Shown piece by piece: positions 29,546 through 41,062 of a DNA stretch of 64,000 bases (position 1 is the first letter of the stretch; the number at the start of each line of letters is the position of its first letter). Source of the stretch: Xiphydria camelus. Its lineage: Eukaryota; Arthropoda; Insecta; Hymenoptera; Xiphydriidae. Below the pieces are notes generated by a model that ran no database searches, had not been told where the DNA came from, and saw nothing but the letters and a program-made list of their open reading frames with translations. Position numbers and translations under genes: made by a program. Location of the stretch: the NCBI GenBank assembly GCA_963678675.1, contig OY783198.1, positions 2,423,001 through 2,487,000 of the forward strand, given 5' to 3'.

Positions 29546-32500
29546 TTATTCCGAGGAGTCCGAGTCGGATTCCGCCGGCGGCTCGGGCACCTCCTCGTGG
29601 ACCTCCGGCGTCGCTTTCGGGATCTTCTTCGTGAGCGTTGCCGAGACGTAAGCGCCCGGTCCCTCGCCCTGCGTGTGCTCGATGCCGACCCTGGAGAAAG
29701 AGACGAAGCGAGAATTAGTACGCGTCTCGCGCGTCGCGTTGATTAAATCGCAATTTGCTCAACGAGTCGACGTGTCCTTCTCGACGAATCGAGACAGCGT
29801 ATACGCAGCCGAGGGAAATTTGTATGCCGCGCGGGTAGCTCGATTTTATCACACCTAAGCGGCTTTTTGTTCGAGACGAACGTCTTTCTCCGCTGAGAAT
29901 TCTGTCAAATTGCGGAGGGACTCGATATCGATTACGCGGGAGGATTCGATCGTAGGTAATCAAGGCAGGTTTAAGTATCTCGGAAATATTTCGAGAAAAG
30001 TACTCCAAGTGATATTAAATTGAGTGAATGTTAATCGAAGTGAAATGAAATCTGTCGAAAAGAAGAAATTGATAATTGAAAAGCACAGTTCGCAGAAACG
30101 ACGTAACGAGAGAGCTCGGAGTTTTATTCGCGCGCGTGGATTCGAAAGAGAGAGCTCGACGGACATGATCGACATTTTAATTGAGACTTACTTTACCGCT
30201 CGTGGAGCAATCACCGTGGCCAATTAAGGGGACAAAGAAGAATTTATTTTACCAGTCAAGCGGAAGATATCGATCGAGGGTTTTCGAGGGAGCTCCCGCT
30301 AGAAATTCGTTTCGCTAGAAATTCAATGTTCTCAGGGTCGTACTTGTACTCGTGCCGCGACAGATTCCGAACGTATTTCTCCGGGGGTGCGTCGCTGTCG
30401 CTGTTCTGAAGACTGACGCTCCTCGCCGTCGTGTGAGACACCTGCGTGGCCGGCATCGTGAATTCCACGTAGCAGTACTCGGCCAGTTTCTCCGGAATTT
30501 GATCGTAGGAGGTGAGAGCCATCCGACAGACGAGCTGGTGCGTCGTGTACGCTCCTGAATGACGTTTGAATCGGAATTAACCGAGCCGTTGAACGCTTGC
30601 GACGGAAGTTTACCGGAAGCGGCAATCGAGCGGAAACGATACCTTGTCCTTCCTTGGGCAACCTGGGCATCCTCCAGACGATGGCGCGATGTTGGTGCTC
30701 GTATTTAGCCTGGCCGGAAGTGACCTCCAGCAGCTGGGGCTCCAGAGTGTCCACGGCGCCCAAGAATCTCTCGATTCCTTTGACCTTACCGGTTCTCCTG
30801 TGAGCCGACTTCACCGAGCCGTACCTGAAGTGCTTCTCGACCCTGAAGAGGTAGATCCAGCACTCCGGGATGGGAAACCGGACCATTACGTCCTCGCACG
30901 GCACCTGTCCCAGCTTCCTGGACGCGAATCCGGGAACCAGAATATCCGCTCTCAGCTCGACCTGATACAACGCGAGGAGGAATTCGTTGATTTCTCAGAT
31001 CTCGCTCGTCGCGGTCTTCCATATTCTTTGTTTAAACTTCGTTAAATTAAGCGTACGGTGGTTTGATTATTTTTCTGTTCGACGCTTTAATTAAAATGCG
31101 AGAGTAAAGTGCATTCGTTGAAAGAGGCAAGAGTGCTGTGTACGGTTTCGACGATTTGACTGGCCAAAGTGCACAGCAGCTACGAGCTTACCTTGTTCCC
31201 GGTAACACACATAACAGCCTTCAGCTGCAGAGGAAGCTCTCTGTTTTTCGGTGGCCTTACTCTGAATCTCATCAATTCGATGTAGCATGCATCCGGCGGT
31301 TTGAACCTTCGGAATGGTTAGTAAGGCAATCGATTAGTTTCGTCCAAGACCGGGGTGTGTTATCGTGGCGGAGGCGTGGACGGAAGTACTCGTATTATCG
31401 GTACGAAGTCGGAATGAAGGAATTCGTTGCAACATGCGTTACTTATGCGAGGGAGGGGGGCGGAAGTATCATCCACGCGAGAAGAATCGCATTCGTTCGC
31501 CTTTGGAAGGAAGATTGAAAATCGAAAGAGAGGCGACTCGCGCGGCCGCCGACGTACTTGATGATCCTGGACTTCTCGTACTCGTCCTGCTGCACGCAGG
31601 AGTGAAACTCGACGTTCTCCAGGCGAATCCACTCTTCGGTTACGACGGGAATGATGTCGTGTCTCCCGACGACCTCCTTGCCTTGCCGCCACATGTCGTT
31701 TATTCCCAGCTCGACGTCGGGCATTCCTGAAGAGACCGCAATTGGCGCGTTAAAATCGAATCGTAGCCACTGCGTCGGAACGCCCCTTCAGTCGGAGCAC
31801 CTCACCCGTGAGAAAGCCCAAGAAGAAGAGCCGCACTCGCGCGATCTGCTTCTCCACGTGACCCTCGGCGCTCTGCTCGACGTAGAGCTCGTCGACGACG
31901 CTGATTTGAACCTCCTCCATCTTGTAGCTGAGCGCGCGATCCCGATGCGCCGGCAGTCGGAAGAGAGCCTCCTCGATCGCGTACGAAAATTGCTTCATGT
32001 CCTCGAAGCACTGCGAGCCGAGTTTGAACAGTTGAGAGATCTGAAATCGAACGGACGAGGGATGCAGCGAGTCGAATCGACGGAAGCCTCGACGTTTCGT
32101 GACGGTTCTCGTCGGCTACCCACCTGCGGCGCGTGCTCCACGGGAAGACCCAGCTTCTTCAGGTCGCTACCGAATTCCTTGACTCCCTGATAGTCGCCCT
32201 GAATCGCGTACGCCGCGAATTGGCTCAGCTTGTTCGTCAGTCTCTCGGCCTTGGTGACTTGGCCGGGTCTCACGCCGGGTCTCTCCTTGTAGAAGACGTA
32301 CTGCAGCTTCACCGTGAAGATCTTGCCGTACTGGTCCAACTGCTGCGCGCCGATATCGGAAACGGAGTAGCAAGCCAGTAACGGCAGTTCTTGGAAGGGA
32401 TCTTTCTCGTCTCTGTTGTTGAAGAGCTGAAGCACCGGATTGTCGCCCTGATAGACGAGCTTGACGAAGGTCTTCTTCCAGAAGCGCTGACCGGTTATCT

Positions 32501-34945
32501 TCTTCTTGTTTGGCTGGCGCAGCTGCATTTCCCAACCGTCGCCGGTGTAGGTGACTCTCGGGAAGTCCTCCAGAGGCTGGCTGACGTCCTCGTCGAAGAG
32601 GGGCGTTGGTGGTGTCTCCTGCGGTGAAGGGGAAGGAAATATGCATAGGTGTTTTTTTTCGAATAGGGATAATTCGATTCGGAAAAATTGATTAACCGAT
32701 GAGAAACGTACTTGAGAATCGGTCCTGGTCATCTCGGCGGTCTGAGCTGCTTCGGTGGAAACGACAGCTTCTTGAGCGAAGCCGGCAGACTTGTCGAAGG
32801 GGTTGAAGCGTGGCGAGGAGTCCGCGTAAGCTGAATTTTGGGGACTTCTCGGCGGTGGCGCTAAGACCGGCACCGCTCCGCCTTCCGTACCAGCGATTTG
32901 ATCTTCTTCCTTCGGTCTGAAAGACGGATCAAGTGTGTGGAAATCGCTTCGACTGCTGAAAAATTGATGTATCGTATAAAAATAAAAACCAATTCGCTCA
33001 CTTGATGAATATACTGAAATCCGGAGCCTCGTCCGAGTCGGCAGACTCGACCCTTTTCATGGTGGCCTCTCGAGGAGGGGCAGTCATGCTGAGGAAAGAA
33101 TCGAACCCCTCGTTCTCGCCGAAGCCAGTGGTAGTTTCGGAGCCAGCCACCGAAGAGTCTCCCCAGACTGTATATAAATGCGGCGCGAATAAGATTTACT
33201 CTCGTTCAGTTCTTATATTTTCGATAAAATATACTTTTAAAGTAAAATTTCGTATCCAAATTGAACTCACCGTCGCTAGAAGTATCCATGGCAGTCTGAC
33301 CCCCGCCAAAGGCGTCGAAAAAGGGATCCACTCCGGGTTCAGGCTCGGCAGCCTTGTCGAATTTGGAAGCAAAAGCATCGAAGGCATCCCCAGTGCTCTC
33401 GATAGACTTCGTCGTTGCCGCAAAGTTGTCCAGGACCTCCGTCTGACCTGGACCACTTCCGGGATACTCCGAGGCAGGTACAGGACTGGTAGAGATGAGA
33501 CTGGCGTCGGGTGCACCCTCGGAAAAGCAGCCCAACAGGTCGGAGGTGAAGGCATTGTTCTGCGGGGTTGCTTGAACGGTGGAATCTTCGGATATCGCGG
33601 TGGCTACCAACGGTTCGGCCCCGAACAGAGAAGCTGACGTGGTAGCGGTGGTTATCGTATTTGCGAGAGAAGCTTGAGAAGCGCCGAAAGGAGACGAAGT
33701 AATGTCGTCAGCCACGGAAAAGAGATTCGACGCTGGTTCCGTCGTAGAAACGGGCTCGTTCGAGAAGATATTCGAAGTTGCAGGTGATACCGAGATCATG
33801 GCTGCATCTTCCGTGCTAGGAATGACTGGTGAAGCTGAGGAAAAAGACCCCCTCGGCGTGCTTCGCGCCGTTTCCGAGAAGGGTGCGGTCGTCGAGAATG
33901 GAGCAATGATAGAACCCGAAGAGGGCCTCTTTTCGTTCGTCGTCGCGGCAGTCTCCACGGGATAATCGGAGCTGAAACCTCCCTCCGCCGTTTCGCCGTG
34001 ATTCATCCCCGCGAATGGATTGTCCTGACCGTTGGAGGACACCTGAGCTAGACCCGAACCGAAGGACGCGTCGGTGGTATCCGTCAAGAAGTTTTCTTCC
34101 TGTCGATTGGAAGAGAACAACCCCGTTGGCCCCATATTGGGAGCATTGAAGAGATCTAAGATATCCTGAGTCTTCGTGTTCTCTTGGACGTTCACCTTGC
34201 CACCCTCATCCGACATCAAGTCCGGCACGTTGCTGTCGACGTCCAGGAAATCGGCGAAGCTGTGTTCCGGCGTTGGCGAGGGCGAGTGCATCAGGGTAGG
34301 ACTGGGTGTCCTGGTGGCTTGAAGACGGTCCAACAGGTGGTTCGAGGTGGCGTCCATAGCACCGGTCACGGAGAGGATCAGGTCCTTGGTGTTCTTGGAC
34401 GTCGGTGGTGGAGGAGGAGGAGGCTGTGGTCTTGGCGGAGGTGGTCTCGAAGGTGGTCTCACATTCTTGAGTGGTTGTTTGGGTTCAACGATCGGCTCGA
34501 TCGTCGGCTTCGCCTCTTCGAAACCACCCAGCAGATTGGTCGAATCAACTTCTTCCTTCGTTCCGAATAAGTTTGCTTGATGATCGGTGAACACATTCGT
34601 TTGTTGCGTATTGCTGCAGCTGAACATGGAAGCGGCCGTCGCATCGACGCAATATCCCGCAGTTGTTGGCGCGACATATCCCGCGGTCGTTTCCACGGCA
34701 AACGCGTTGCCCGGGTCGCTGGTTTCAACGCCGAAGGAGGCGAAAGGATTCGTGGAGTCGACGTTGGGTGGAGATTGGTAGGACTGGTCGGATTCAAAGT
34801 TCAGGAATGGATTTTCTCCAGCCGCGGCCGCGGGTGGTTCGGCAAAATCCTGTAGAAAAGGATTGGATACCGGTTGACTCGGTTTATCGCTAGACTCCGC
34901 CGCGTAGTCATCCATGAGAAAGGGGTTGCTCCCTTTGGAGTCCAT
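29546..34945 (-). CDS. stnB: Stoned B (stonin), second cistron of stoned
   Basis: Ten exons: 34945-33271, 33167-33002, 32916-32712, 32618-32124, 32040-31806, 31726-31558, 31306-31192, 30961-30643, 30554-30344 and 29690-29546; 3,735 nt, 1,244 residues, close to the roughly 1,260 of Drosophila StnB. StnB is an endocytic adaptor that retrieves synaptotagmin and synaptic-vesicle membrane at nerve terminals. The N-terminal 560 residues are disordered and carry six NPF motifs (SNPFLMDD, SNPFLQDF, ENPFLNF, TNPFASF, DNPFAGM, FNPFDKS), which are ligands for EH-domain proteins, and a proline-rich run near 170. The stonin homology domain (about 683-847) shows FPRVTYTGDGWEMQLRQPN and WKKTFVKLVYQGDNPVLQLF. 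The AP-2 mu homology domain follows (CYIELMRFRVRPP, KEGQGAYTTHQLVCRMALTS). The C-terminus ends PEPPAESDSDSSE. The start ATG has a strong context (AAGATGG) and lies 191 bases behind the stnA stop. Confidence 0.96.
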
Positions 34946-35136
34946 CTTGAAGGAGGTTAGCAGAAAATCGAAGTATCGAAGAAAAATTTATTTGCCGTGA
35001 CGAATTTTTCACAGTCGGTTGGAAGATCGACGATATTAAATAGTGACGTTTAATTTATCCGATTATACAGGAGAAATTTGATTCCAAAAATTTACCCATT
35101 AATCAAACTCGCGTCTCTCGGCAGTCAATGGCGTTA
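34946..35136 (-). promoter_or_regulatory. stnA-stnB intercistronic spacer with possible 3' splice site
   Basis: 191 bases separate the stnA TAA (followed at once by a second TAA) from the stnB ATG. The spacer holds one ATG (35,099-35,097), which opens a 14-codon frame closed before stnB. It ends with TGCTAACCTCCTTCAAG directly before the stnB ATG: a branch-point-like CTAAC, a pyrimidine tract and an AG. A donor-like GGTAAAT lies at 35,096. If both are used a 150-nt intron would be removed, leaving a 41-nt spacer. I remember a spacer of about 55 nt in Drosophila. The splice use is inference. Confidence 0.5.
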
Positions 35137-37863
35137 TTATTTTTCCATAAATTCCGACTCCAACAGCTTGAGCTCCGTCTTTCCGGGACCGATGGTTGCG
35201 AAGCTGGTATCGAACGGATCGATATCTTCACCGAAGGACGGCTCCTTGTCCAAATAAGGCGTCAGGACCTTCGCTCCCGAATCCTGTCCTCCGAGACTGA
35301 GAATGTCCGTTGTCTCGCCGGCGCGCGGGTCGAAATCTTGTTCCTCTTCGAGGACCGGTGGTACCACCTGCACGTTCGATCTCGCAGGTGCGACAGGCTT
35401 GACCGGCAGCTGAGGTGGCTCCCTGACCTGGCTCAACTCGTTCTCCAGCAATTTCAACTCCGCCTTCCCCGGAGGAAGATTGGCAGCGATGGACGTGTCA
35501 AACGGATCCCTGTAATATATCTCTTCGTCTTCTTCCCGCACCTTGGACTCGACTCTGGGTGTCAAGGCTTTAGCATTGACCTCGACTTCGGCGTCCAGCA
35601 GACTCTCCTGCCTCGTCGCAATCGATTTCCTTCCCCTCGTTTTGCTCGTCTCGACGTTGTTGACGTTCAAGTCCTTCGGTCTGGCGGTGACGACGGAGAA
35701 TTCGGAGAATCGTCTGCGTTGAGTCGACGCCTCGGCTCTTGGATCGAAATCGTGATCGCTCAAACTGTGCGGCAACTTCGTCTCCTGCTTCAACAACTCC
35801 GACTCTATCAATTTCAGTTCCGTCTTACCAGGGGTGACTTTGGAGACAAAGCTGGTGTCGAAAGGATCTACTTCAGCCTCCTCGACCTCCGCTTCCGGCA
35901 GACTCTCTTCTAAAGATTTCTGAGAATAGTAGGGCGTCAGTGGTTTCGACGGTATCGCCTTTTCTTCTTCCGAAGTCTTCAGTAAATCCGGACGTTGCGA
36001 CGGCGTGGGTAGTTCGAAGGCGACGTTTTTGGCGGGGTTCAAACCGAGATTTTCAGGTCTGGAAAACTTGCGACTCCTACCGGCTTGCTTCACCGAATCG
36101 TTCTCTTCCAGCTTTTCCTCTTCCTCAAAGTTCACCTGGAAGTTAGGCTTGACGGGCGGCGCGGGCCTCTTCGGTGCGACCTTCGGAGCCTTCTCGTCCT
36201 TTCTCGGATCGAATTCGTCGTCGAACAGAGAATCCTCGGCATCGACGGTGACCGCTGGTGTTTCTCCCAAAAGTTCCTTTTCCAGAAACTTGAGTTCGGT
36301 CTTGCCGGGGGGTAATTCCTGCACGGAAGAAGTGTCGAAAGGGTCGACGTAAATGATCTCCTCCTCTGGTGCTATGGGTTCGTCCGTCAGCTGACCCAAG
36401 TCCGTAACAGAGCCCCCTAAAAGGTCCTTTTTAGCAGGTTCCAAACTCCCGCCGAGATTATCTTCCCCCTCCTCGCTCTCCTCCTTTATCAATCCCGTCT
36501 CGTAATCTCGATGGAGCCCGGCAGGATCCGTCAGAGAAATAGAAACTTCGGAAACCGGCAACTCTTCCAACTCCTTCTCGATGAACTTCAATTCCGTTTT
36601 CCCGGGAAGTAAATTGTCGGCAAAGGTGGTGTCGAAAGGATCCTCCTCGTCGACGAAAGTGGCAGCTTCGAAGCTAGCTTCGATTATTTCCGTCTGAAAG
36701 TCTCCGATGCCTTCTTCGGGTTCCTTGGCACCGAAGGGATCGTCAGCCTCCTCCAGAAGCACCGGCTCGACGGAGGCGGCGCTCAGATCAAACTCCGCAT
36801 CGTCCAAGTCCGGAATCTCCTCTAAGATCGTCTTCTCCTTCAGTACCTCGAACTCCGAGATGTCCAAGGGCGCGATTTCCGTCTTCTTCGCGAGGTTATC
36901 CTCGATTTCGGGTGTCACGGATCTCGGAAGGACTGGAGGGAGCTTCGCGAGGTCGATGGGAACGTCTGGTAGGTCGGAGTCGTCGTCCAGAAGAGTTTTC
37001 CTGGTTTCTACGGGCTCCGGTGCGACGTTGGAAACGACTTCCTGCGGTTCTGCGCCTTCCTCGAACTCACCCAAGAGCAGATCTTCGGTGCCGCGTTGAC
37101 TCTTGCGTGGTCTTCCAATTTTACAGGTGCTCACGTGATCGATGCGACCGGAAAGAACCTCTACGGCGTTTCCCAAGCTCACGAGTTTATTGCCCTTCTT
37201 ATCGACGGTCTTGAGGACCTTATCGGCGCTGGTGGTATCGAAGGGATCGTCTCCAGTTTCCTGCTCGGTCGGACTCTCGGGTATGTAAGCTAATTGAACG
37301 TCGATATTCTGCAGTACATCCACGTAGGTCGTATCGAAGATGTCTTCTTCGGCGGAGTCTTCTTGATCATCCTCGTCTTCGGGTAGATCGAAGAAATTCT
37401 CTTCGAAGACTGGCGATTTATATTCTATGCGTTTCTTGCTTCCTCCCTGTTCGACCTCTTCGTCTTCGTCGTCTGATCCGCCGACAGGATTGCCGTCCTT
37501 GTCGAAGCCGACCCACTTCTTCGCCTGCTTCCTCGACTCGCTTAGCGCCGCTTCCTCGGTGGCTTTTTTCTTGTCTTCCAAAGGCGCTTTGCGCTGGAAG
37601 AAGGAAGTCGACTTGATGCGGTCTAGGTCGCCCTGGGTCTTCTTCAAGATCGAATCTACGCCCGCGGTGAGAGCCTCGAACTTCTTCCACTCATCGGAAC
37701 CGGCGCCGGCCGCTTCACCGGCCTCCGCGGCTTTCTGCTGGGCCTCCGCCCGTTCTTTTCGGTAACGCTCGAGCTCCTCGGGATCGAACTCGTCCTCTTC
37801 CGCCCCCTTCTTGCCCTTCTTCTGCTTTTTCTTTTTCTTCAGGCCCTTGGCTAGCTTGTGCAT
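35137..37863 (-). CDS. stnA: Stoned A, first cistron of stoned
   Basis: One uninterrupted frame of 908 residues. StnA works with StnB and the AP-2 adaptor in synaptic-vesicle recycling. The N-terminus is lysine-rich (KKKKKQKKGKKG) and followed by acidic sequence. The protein is hydrophilic, without membrane segments. It carries seven DPF motifs, typical AP-2 alpha-ear ligands. Five sit in a repeat of the form DPFDTS followed by PGKTELK and a Leu/Ile-Glu block (for example DPFDTSFATIGPGKTELK at residue 882); the last copy ends at the stop codon. Only one internal methionine exists, at residue 906 (EFMEK). The whole coding frame has seven internal ATGs in any frame. That favours ribosomes scanning on to stnB. 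Length is near the roughly 850 residues of the fly protein. The start ATG has A at -3 and follows several AG acceptors, so 5' UTR exons are probably upstream. Confidence 0.95.
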   Translation of the reverse strand: MHKLAKGLKKKKKQKKGKKGAEEDEFDPEELERYRKERAEAQQKAAEAGEAAGAGSDEWKKFEALTAGVDSILKKTQGDLDRIKSTSFFQRKAPLEDKKKATEEAALSESRKQAKKWVGFDKDGNPVGGSDDEDEEVEQGGSKKRIEYKSPVFEENFFDLPEDEDDQEDSAEEDIFDTTYVDVLQNIDVQLAYIPESPTEQETGDDPFDTTSADKVLKTVDKKGNKLVSLGNAVEVLSGRIDHVSTCKIGRPRKSQRGTEDLLLGEFEEGAEPQEVVSNVAPEPVETRKTLLDDDSDLPDVPIDLAKLPPVLPRSVTPEIEDNLAKKTEIAPLDISEFEVLKEKTILEEIPDLDDAEFDLSAASVEPVLLEEADDPFGAKEPEEGIGDFQTEIIEASFEAATFVDEEDPFDTTFADNLLPGKTELKFIEKELEELPVSEVSISLTDPAGLHRDYETGLIKEESEEGEDNLGGSLEPAKKDLLGGSVTDLGQLTDEPIAPEEEIIYVDPFDTSSVQELPPGKTELKFLEKELLGETPAVTVDAEDSLFDDEFDPRKDEKAPKVAPKRPAPPVKPNFQVNFEEEEKLEENDSVKQAGRSRKFSRPENLGLNPAKNVAFELPTPSQRPDLLKTSEEEKAIPSKPLTPYYSQKSLEESLPEAEVEEAEVDPFDTSFVSKVTPGKTELKLIESELLKQETKLPHSLSDHDFDPRAEASTQRRRFSEFSVVTARPKDLNVNNVETSKTRGRKSIATRQESLLDAEVEVNAKALTPRVESKVREEDEEIYYRDPFDTSIAANLPPGKAELKLLENELSQVREPPQLPVKPVAPARSNVQVVPPVLEEEQDFDPRAGETTDILSLGGQDSGAKVLTPYLDKEPSFGEDIDPFDTSFATIGPGKTELKLLESEFMEK

Positions 37864-38473
37864 CCTCTAAGAGCTACGGTGGTGTGGGGGAGGCCTCTAG
37901 AATCATTGAGGATATTCTTTTTCAATTCGAGAGAACCCGTCAACCGTTGATGAAAATAATTGGTGGCACTTGAACTCGCACGCGGTAATCGACAAAAATC
38001 GTAAATTACAGGACACGCGAAGGGTATCATCGAGCGCGGCTCGTTGAGACCCTTTGACGTTAAAAATCTCTGGAATGTAAACACTGACGTCAAGAATCCT
38101 ACTACGAAAGGAATCTATTTCCGTATACGCCTATATTTTTTAAAAGGAATGCGTGACGTCCAGAGGGATTGCTATAACATTTGCGAAAGCTCGCTTGAAT
38201 GAAGCTCTCGATTTGAACGGGTTACGTAGCTTTTCATCGATCGGTACCCAGTATGTGCTCGTCGCGTGTACGAGCGTATACACCTACGCGCGCATATCTG
38301 TACAGTGTGCTTATAAGATCTCAAAAAAGTATTGTGTAAAGCTTTTATATATTGTATCTCTCTCCAAATTCTTCCAAGTTCAAAACCAAAGTTTTTCTCG
38401 TTTATTTACGACATCGATTTCGAATATATAGTTTTTTATTAGTTGTAATATCAGAATAAATATATCCATTGCA

Positions 38474-38541
38474 GTCTCTCTCTCTCCCCCCCCCCCCCCT
38501 TTCTCTCTCCCACTCCCTCTCTCTGCCCCTCTCTCTCTCTA
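38474..38541 (+). repeat. CT- and C-rich low-complexity tract
   Basis: CT repeats interrupted by a run of 12-13 C. Confidence 0.85.
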
Positions 38542-41062
38542 CCATTTATGTAGTCTTAATCGGCTCTTAAGTTACACATTCACAAGTATGCATACTGTAT
38601 GCTCGATTGATAAGTGCAGAAGGAATGCTTACATGTGGCGAACGTCCGAAAAAAGAAAAAATTATTATCTCGTACACACATCGATTTGGCACGGAATCTT
38701 TGCCAGAAGTTGCCGGTCGACGAAAGACCGACGCACACATTTATAAAGTGTCCACGTTCGTACATATGTCTACGTAAAATGGCTGTACGTTCTGTACATA
38801 ATGAGCTTATAAATTCGCTCCGTATGCAGATTTGCATATTAATTGAATATTCCGCATTCCGTCTGGGGCGAAATGGCACGTTGCTGCACAGAGAAGTGAA
38901 ATCCCTCCGCCTATAGTCAGACATTCGATAGTCGCGCGGGACTCTTCTAAGAAAAAATAAATTGCAGCCTATACAGACGCATAAAATAGAAAATTTCTCT
39001 GTTTCAGAGTAGGTACTCGTTCCGTTAGAGACGCGGTTCGCTTCGGAACACCGGTTCACTCTACGTCAAACTTTTCAATCGATCCGAGCGTCACCGTGAG
39101 AGGGAGAAGGGTACGAACAGAGAGAGAGGGTCGTAATCTTTCTCTCAAAGCCGATGTCTTTACCCTCGTAAAGTTTTTGCGCCACACTTTACCCCACTCT
39201 TATGAAAGGAATTAATTATACGACTTCATGCCACTCGACCTGCAACCGAGACCCGTGTCTCGGATTTGCCTATCCAACAGGTTCATTGTGGGCGTACGAA
39301 ACGTGGGGAGGGTTGTCGCGGGTCAGCAGGGACACGCGTTTTCAATTTATTCGTCTTTCAATGCTTTGATCACCGGGGTACGAAATTGAAATCGATCCGA
39401 CATCGATCTCGGCGATGCTTCCATCCGAACAGGCGCCTCAAATAGTTGCCGGTCAACAGGAGCGCGCAATTTTTATCTTCGTCGTCGATGTTATCATCTC
39501 TGGCGACAAAATTTGACCTAGTTCGCGTTATCGGAAGAATTGACGAGCAGATACTATTTTGAGATTATTGATTGCAGCCGGGGGCTTTAGTTGAAAGGAG
39601 TGAGAGAGAAAAGACGAGGGATGAAGAGATTGAGCACGAATGAGAGTAAGAAAGAGAGAATCGAAGGCAGAGGGGACCGAGAAATCGCGTGTGCCTGACG
39701 TCTCGCGTATAGCAAACATTTAACTCGTACTTATATTTAGAAATCTCTGCTTACGCCCTCTCCCGCACTCGGTCTCGCTAAGAATGTCCGATTGAAAGAA
39801 TAGGCAATTCGTTCATCGGAGCGACGAGGAGAATTTCGAAAGATCCACGAACATTTTGATGATACGATCTATTTCAGCTTCGAGAGCAATTCTCGAAAGA
39901 TGCCTATAATATTAGATTTGTTCTTCTTCTCAAAAATAATTTCAACGTCTGACGAAAGTCTCGAATCGAATTGCGAGACTGTAGCAGGTGCACGCCGCGA
40001 TAGCTGGAATTTCCAAAAACGAAGATAATTGTTTGTGAAATGAATCGAATCGGTACCGCGGCAGCACGCTCCCCCGAAAGTCCGGTGATGAATTTATGCA
40101 CCCCTTTTTTCTATAACCACCGGTATTACGGGGGAATGTAGGGGTGATAGAGGTCGGCTGCGAATGATCGATGCGGAAGCTCCTAGTCGGGAAATTCTTC
40201 CGAGAAAAGACACTGTCCCGCTTAACCGGTGGAAAGGTTCATTTCTCTAGTTATATTCGGTACCGATAATTAGAGTTCGTTCGACGCGCGGATCGTCGGG
40301 GTGTCGTAATCGTTAAGTAGTGCGACCCGCGTAGTCACCGACGAGACGCGAGAATCATCGTTATCATCACTCGGGCGGGGGAGAAGGGTGTAAAGCTATC
40401 GGCACAAGGGTTGGCCAAGTCAATACTCACAATTCGAGCCTCATCAGCCACATTGGTTTGTTGCACATTTTTTTCGCGTCATCCCGAGCTTTCGGCCACC
40501 ATGGAATGAGCGAAAAAAACGGAGTACGAAGCACCGAGTAGAAAAAAATCGCGACTCTCTCTCTCTCTCCCGTTACACGCCCGTCCCCTTCACCGTCTGC
40601 CGAGAGGGAAAAACGATTTCTGAAACTCCCGAGGAGCCCTGAAGGCTCTGCTGAAAGCGGAGGCGACTCACCTCGTACTCCGGCCTGCGCTATTTCCAGC
40701 ATCGATCCGTTCCGCGCGGAGAGTGCGCACACCCCCGTCCCGAAGGAGGAGCGCATGTGTACAGTGGGTTCGAGAAATCACCCCTGATCGGAGATGCGAC
40801 GGAGAAGAGCGTCGCTACCGGTGAATGTCGAGTGCAAAGTAAGATATAGCATATGGATGCGTACAGTGCAAACTCCGGCGACGCCGGTCTCCCAGGAAGT
40901 CGCCGAACGACGCTTTTTCGTCTCTGTTTAATTTGTTTAACTTGCCCCATCCGTTTTCTCTCCTATGTATGAGTGTAACGCTTATAAGAACTCTAGGGGT
41001 GGATTGCGTACTCTTTCGAAAAATCCGCAGGTCGAAAATTAAAATGGGATAAAAGTCGCTTT

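Follow-up and report, generated by a model that had tools for sequence, protein, structure and literature searches.

The closest described system is the stoned locus of Drosophila melanogaster (Andrews et al. 1996; Wall et al. 2005), which papers citing the later study describe as dicistronic and dependent on leaky scanning. As cited in one of these (PMC3372440), Wall, Phillips and Kelly (J Biol Chem 280:27670) reported that in-frame AUGs in the first open reading frame (ORF1) of stoned and of snapin attenuate ORF2. Another citing paper describes both Drosophila ORF1s as deficient in internal AUG and the corresponding reporters as dependent on leaky scanning (PMC11892635). By that account, the ORF1 of snapin, a different locus from stoned, likewise permits leaky scanning. 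The same paper reports bicistronic loci of green algae in which AUGs are depleted upstream of ORF2, the ORF1 start is weaker than that of ORF2 and leaky scanning has been tested in vivo; these are other genes in another lineage, and stnA is 2.7 kb long. The mechanism is thus already published for fruit flies, and the locus of Xiphydria camelus described here is a further stoned member. Our comparison with the fly locus is made from its published description and concerns same-named homologues with an AUG-poor ORF1, beside which we set two features of X. camelus, a 191-nt gap between the cistrons and a methionine three codons before the stnA stop. A first-pass annotation of this DNA had taken Drosophila stnA to lack internal methionines and its locus to be dicistronic, and the citing papers agree. 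What is new here is the breadth across insects, an exception at the end of the frame, a control within a repeat motif and, in one genome, out-of-frame ATGs at background level. We found no report of an insect-wide methionine desert or of its terminal exception in the open-access literature that we searched.

The window analysed is a stretch of 64,000 nt from the X. camelus assembly, which comprises 357 Mb in 38 contigs. Homologue searching with stnA gave 429 matches, the best 30 of which show 63-67% identity across 95-100% of the query, and "stoned-A" is the label of many named homologues among the matches listed. No Pfam family was found in the stnA ORF at E <= 0.001. The stnB frame lies directly downstream on the same strand, and two PF00928 matches fall inside its mu-homology stretch (Table 1). 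Together, the homologues, the PF00928 matches and tblastn bear out the earlier identification of the frame as stnA adjoining stnB. Trees of StnA and of StnB both group X. camelus, with good support, with the sawflies Athalia and Neodiprion, a placement that suggests a sawfly-grade hymenopteran. The ATG counts and coordinates first given for stnA, namely the start, one internal in-frame ATG at 35148 and six out-of-frame ATGs, proved exact, and all six of the latter are in the +1 frame. Beyond the ATGs first listed, the intercistronic region has one at 35099, which opens an ORF of 14 codons; it also contains a donor-like GTAAAT at 35095. Between the stnA and stnB starts there are, in all, eight AUGs, which open ORFs of 3 to 36 codons.

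Table 1. Features of the stoned locus in the X. camelus window (positions are those of the window).
Feature	Position	Strand	Details	Basis
stnA (stoned-A) ORF	35137..37863	-	908 codons, single open frame	ORF list and homologues
stnA start ATG	37861..37863	-	context TAGAGG[ATG]CA (A at -3, C at +4)	
Out-of-frame ATG in stnA	37692..37694	-	12-codon ORF	
Out-of-frame ATG in stnA	37368..37370	-	26-codon ORF	
Out-of-frame ATG in stnA	37317..37319	-	9-codon ORF	
Out-of-frame ATG in stnA	36798..36800	-	5-codon ORF	
Out-of-frame ATG in stnA	36240..36242	-	36-codon ORF	
Out-of-frame ATG in stnA	35574..35576	-	4-codon ORF	
Sole internal in-frame ATG of stnA	35146..35148	-	context GAATTT[ATG]GA; 3-codon ORF (M-E-K-stop) at stnA stop	
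Intercistronic region stnA-stnB	34946..35136	-	191 nt	
3' splice-acceptor-like sequence	34946..34960	-	CTAACCTCCTTCAAG; abuts stnB ATG on its 5' side	
stnB (stoned-B) exon 1	33272..34945	-	558 codons	exon 3' end set by similarity to P0073
Further stnB exons (mu-homology domain)	29549..33168	-	exon ends approximate	tblastn with P0073

We consider it probable, at roughly 80%, that this is the insect stoned dicistron, in which ribosomes reach stnB by leaky scanning through stnA and in-frame AUGs have been purged from stnA. A single mRNA would carry stnA and then stnB. Most ribosomes would start at the stnA AUG, while a minority would leak past it, scan the whole stnA frame as if it were a leader and initiate at the AUG of stnB, whose context may be the better of the two. 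Any in-frame AUG within stnA would act as a ribosome trap by opening a long ORF that runs to the stnA stop, and such AUGs would have been purged because of this capture. AUGs that open very short ORFs, whether in the last three codons of stnA or out of frame by chance (4 to 36 codons), would be tolerated because a ribosome that has translated a few codons can resume scanning; those at the very end would be harmless because their ORFs span at most three codons. For X. camelus itself, we infer this combination of leaky scanning and reinitiation.

The proposal calls for one message, and related Hymenoptera suggest that one exists. The longest contig is 7,201 nt for both stnA row P0011 and stnB row P0132, which are both sisters of Lasioglossum in the trees, and 6,679 nt for both stnA row P0059 and stnB row P0170, which both fall in the Belonocnema group. 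The other nine unnamed stnB rows from the same source are without such a longest-contig match to stnA. Since stnB has several introns in the window, an uninterrupted stnB frame of 1,195 residues in a 7.2-kb contig should represent cDNA. These observations suggest dicistronic cDNAs with separate ORFs in two related Hymenoptera, equal lengths being an indication and not proof. Among the matches listed, seven species from three orders also carry stnA and stnB under consecutive source locus numbers, for example Ampulex (KM043_009328/009327), Rhynchophorus (GWI33_001043/001042), Ranatra (AAG570_008513/008512) and Pyrocoelia (RI129_007222/007223).

StnB might instead be made from an alternatively spliced mRNA in which an acceptor at the stnB ATG is joined either to a leader exon or to a cryptic donor close to the 3' end of stnA. 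The product would be a monocistronic stnB message or a StnA-StnB fusion, and stnB output would depend less on the stnA frame. The sequence CTAACCTCCTTCAAG directly before the ATG scores 6.1 with a matrix built from stnB acceptors, within the top 2.9% of 3,618 AGs on the strand; this score is nevertheless below those of all eight stnB acceptors from which the matrix was built (7.3-11.9), and CAAGATGG is equally a good initiation context. The annotated protein also contains stnA in 41 of the 119 stnB rows among the matches listed (P0121-P0239), and in many of these fused rows stnA is complete and is followed by the start methionine of stnB. However, the junctions of the fused models vary by species, as expected of gene predictors that bridge two ORFs on one transcript. 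In the relative of Lasioglossum, moreover, the rows tied to the 7,201-nt contig have a separate stnA end (...ESELMDK) and stnB start (MDSKGS), contrary to the fused model P0130. We read the fused stnA-stnB models as probable predictor bridges, and the comparison flags them in the databases. Splicing also leaves the methionine desert and its terminal exception, described below, unexplained. We keep it as an alternative, albeit an unlikely one.

The methionine content of StnA favors leaky scanning with purged in-frame AUGs. In X. camelus, stnA has one internal Met in 907 codons, where 23.3 are expected at the rate of 2.57% seen in 20 kinase exons (135 Met in 5,254 codons; binomial P = 1.4e-9). 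The neighboring stnB exon 1, for which around ten internal methionines had been noted, has 10 Met in 558 codons, of which 9 are internal. For the wider comparison, 120 rows were taken from each of three homologue searches (429, 387 and 472 matches), and all of the following counts refer to the matches listed. StnA was represented by 150 rows, of which 17 were dropped before counting because they were truncated, fused or missing the start; the 133 that were full-length by start and terminal motif were joined by the window sequence to give 134. These contain two core Met in 116,524 core residues, compared with 3,807 expected from the Met/ILV ratio of stnB or about 2,570 from the kinase ratio multiplied by the ILV count. 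Five further Met lie at position 2 or 5, within the first six residues; 73 of the 134 sequences have the start Met as their sole methionine. Of the named rows, 44 could be assigned to eight orders through their genera, which we take to belong to Hymenoptera, Coleoptera, Hemiptera, Orthoptera, Phasmatodea, Blattodea, Thysanoptera and Trichoptera; no Diptera or Lepidoptera were recognised in the listed stnA rows that bear a name. The supposition that the near-absence of internal Met has been kept over a large evolutionary distance thus holds for 134 sequences with named members from eight orders.

Such a deficit might have arisen because Met is disfavoured in StnA on protein grounds, StnA being an acidic, lysine-rich and probably disordered scaffold, with no role for translation. 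It does contain much E, D, K and P, and little Cys (0.38%) or Trp (0.23%). However, Met reaches 2.1% in the N-terminal portion of StnB (56 segments with 186 Met in 8,865 residues), and 20% of StnA consists of I, L and V. Met replaces these residues at the last hydrophobic position of the protein, but at the corresponding position of 455 internal copies it never does. This paired observation comes from a repeat motif, E-L-K-x-x-E-x-E-L-x, which occurs in several copies, the last of which forms the end of the protein. The final x of the internal copies is L, E, I, V or another residue (0/455 Met), whereas in the 134 terminal copies it is Met in 58, Ile in 47, Phe in 19, Leu in 5, Val in 4 and Thr in 1. 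Counted by codon, 58 of the 134 sequences, the window included, have Met in the last three codons. The difference between terminal and internal copies gives a Fisher p of 1.6e-126, which is not to be taken literally since the rows are related. Met is thus acceptable to the motif at the end of the frame and absent from every internal copy examined, which indicates selection on the position of AUG and not on Met as a residue. The protein-level explanation is strongly weakened by these results, and we regard it as very improbable. They also favor the original suggestion of selection for ribosome access to stnB, in that the positional pattern of Met points to selection on initiation.

The terminal Met is not a single inherited event, because a quick tree needs 11 gains or losses, 10 of them forced by well-supported branches. 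It was seen in Hymenoptera, Coleoptera, Hemiptera and Trichoptera, and in all 42 rows of the clade with the named ants, bees and Ampulex. The two core Met exceptions of the filtered set also lie close to the stop, at distances of 17 and 37 residues. Outside this set, where all rows of the first search and selected dropped and fused rows were inspected, core Met occur in rows P0071 (position 699 of 861), P0074 (607 of 755) and P0248 (742 of 904), and in the fused model P0158 (616 of an 801-residue stnA part). These four breach the near-the-stop rule, since some 150-185 residues separate them from the end of stnA or from that of the row. Row P0048 has a Met at position 819, in a tail unlike that of other rows, and the fused model P0134 has one at position 868, the same site as in P0010. 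Across 43 models that are fused or partial, the stnA portions together contain two core Met in 34,748 residues.

Out-of-frame ATGs behave differently from in-frame ones. The first-pass annotation had set 8 ATGs in stnA against about 40 expected under equal base use. The expectation is 39.5 from base composition, in line with that figure, and 20.0 from dinucleotides; the in-frame part of the depletion is exceptional, as described above, whereas the out-of-frame deficit is matched by kinase exons from this genome. A shuffle preserving protein and codon use predicts 17.4 ± 2.7 out-of-frame ATGs compared with the 6 observed, and none of 5,000 shuffles was as low. The proposed check against codon-shuffled controls is thus passed, but for the wrong reason, as the shuffles are blind to a habit of codon junctions: they keep codons but not junctions. 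All six out-of-frame ATGs consist of an Asp, Asn, His or Tyr codon ending in T before a codon that begins with G (NAT-G). In stnA, NAT makes up 6 of 39 NAY codons before G vs 45 of 80 before other bases. NTT-G is shunned as strongly (7/67), NCT-G and NGT-G are likewise avoided, and the CpG observed/expected ratio of the window is 1.47. The out-of-frame deficit therefore matches a genomic habit of placing C before G across codon junctions. Both the kinase exons and the other ORFs, when pooled, show this preference, which is weak in stnB exon 1 alone. Synonymous and whole-codon shuffles, which break it, were rejected as a test of purging, and the result is a caution that codon-preserving shuffles inflate ATG depletion in CpG-rich insect genomes.

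For a control that retains codon junctions, nine other ORFs of at least 450 codons were compared first; eight of these (all but stnB exon 1) were scanned with Pfam and two gave a match. Because the coding status of those ORFs was unproven, 20 kinase-domain exons, hand-picked from 151 matches in the same genome, were taken instead. The NAT-G fraction is 15% in both stnA (6/39) and the kinase exons (34/226; Fisher p = 1.0). By third-position GC (GC3), the kinase exons give 21/48 below 0.6, 9/58 at 0.6-0.7 and 4/120 above, and stnA, with a GC3 of 0.66, has the fraction of its class (9/58, from five exons of similar GC3). In this one genome, out-of-frame AUG depletion in stnA beyond the kinase-exon background was not detectable. 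The DNA comparison is limited to X. camelus since one scan each of viral and genome contig collections gave no relative of the stnA DNA. In stnB exon 1 (GC3 0.61), the NAT-G fraction is 11/26, above that of stnA (p = 0.02) and also above that of kinase exons with GC3 0.6-0.7 (p = 0.01). The former comparison leans towards a weak out-of-frame purge in stnA, which may exist, and the six ATGs can be explained without one. The shortness of the out-of-frame ORFs was considered as evidence for reinitiation and rejected, as such lengths are expected by chance: a shuffled ORF is of at most 36 codons with a frequency of 0.71, so the shortness is not significant.

Background-level out-of-frame ATGs are consistent with the word "in-frame" in the title of Wall et al. 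(2005), and the length of the ORF opened would best explain them. A pure scanning model would disfavour out-of-frame ATGs too, yet they show no purge in excess of the kinase exons. A more specific form of leaky scanning through stnA is conceivable, though we consider it doubtful. Here the constraint would be on the length of the ORF that is opened and not on AUG as such, short ORFs would be hopped by reinitiation, and the recurrent AUG within the last three codons of stnA would be more than tolerated, serving as a start-stop element by which scanning ribosomes are recaptured and the output of stnB is set.

The two start contexts were also compared. Both have A at -3, with C at +4 for stnA and G for stnB (start ATG at 34945, TTCAAG[ATG]GA). 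In 132 of 134 rows StnA has His or Leu after the start Met, which gives a base other than G at +4, the search pattern having admitted only H, L, Q, I and V as the second residue. For stnB, +4 is G in 95 of 98 starts recognised among 119 rows, with a pattern that admitted only D, E, A, S, T and G as the second residue. A fly in vitro study describes the best contexts as enriched in -3A and +4G and the poorest as carrying -3U/C, -2C and +4C (PMC10853783). By that measure the stnA start would be intermediate, and its A at -3 means that it does not look weak by sequence. Upstream of it, the leader contains ATGs at 37906 and 38030, which would burden scanning if the leader is unspliced.

The arrangement of the two frames would also permit stnB to be translated from an internal ribosome entry site (IRES), or by ordinary termination and reinitiation after full-length stnA. 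Reinitiation would generally be unlikely after an ORF as long as 908 codons. According to FlyBase curators (PMC4528330), dicistrons in general may commonly rely on an IRES. However, Rfam gave no match within 34500-38600, and the predicted RNA fold of 34920-35136 is ordinary (z = +0.86), with 163 of 200 shuffles folding as well. Furthermore, neither route requires an ORF1 that is free of AUG along its full length. Both are disfavoured and appear scarcely probable.

In conclusion, this analysis widens a reporter result from flies to a record of selection, in which a coding sequence is nearly free of one codon in eight insect orders. The paired motif control, inside the frame and at its end, separates selection at the RNA level from selection at the protein level, and it suggests that the AUGs that matter are those that open long ORFs. 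The analysis also offers a simple genome test for other dicistrons. In stoned, the near-loss of one codon from stnA is apparently due to the gene downstream of it.

At codon junctions, C is strongly favoured over T before G, both in the stoned-A (stnA) frame and in 20 kinase-domain exons of the same genome (L029-L048), and this bias rises with third-position GC. A codon-preserving shuffle therefore overstates the depletion of out-of-frame ATGs. The CpG observed/expected ratio of the window is 1.47. In exon 1 of stoned-B (stnB), codons ending in AT account for 11 of the 26 NAY codons that precede G, a larger fraction than in stnA and also than in kinase exons with similar third-position GC.

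Among stnA homologues, Met lies just 5′ of the stop in every row (42/42) of the clade that holds the named ants, bees and Ampulex; outside this clade, the position carries either Met or one of Ile, Phe, Leu and Val.

In the protein database, 41 of the 119 stnB rows (P0121-P0239) include stnA and are annotated as one long protein (e.g., P0122, P0130 and P0149). The linkers between the two parts are species-specific. These fused rows are likely annotation bridges, but rare splicing is possible. The stnB model of Belonocnema kinseyi (P0200) carries an extra domain, PF07530, and may be chimeric.

Positions of the stnA and stnB features discussed
Feature	Position	Strand
stnA frame	35137-37863	-
stnB exon 1	33272-34945	-
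Unspliced stnA leader, proximal ATG	37906	-
Unspliced stnA leader, distal ATG	38030	-

Since the ORF opening at the distal leader ATG overlaps the stnA start, the stnA 5′ leader likely contains an intron; otherwise, both leader ATGs would hinder translation of stnA itself.
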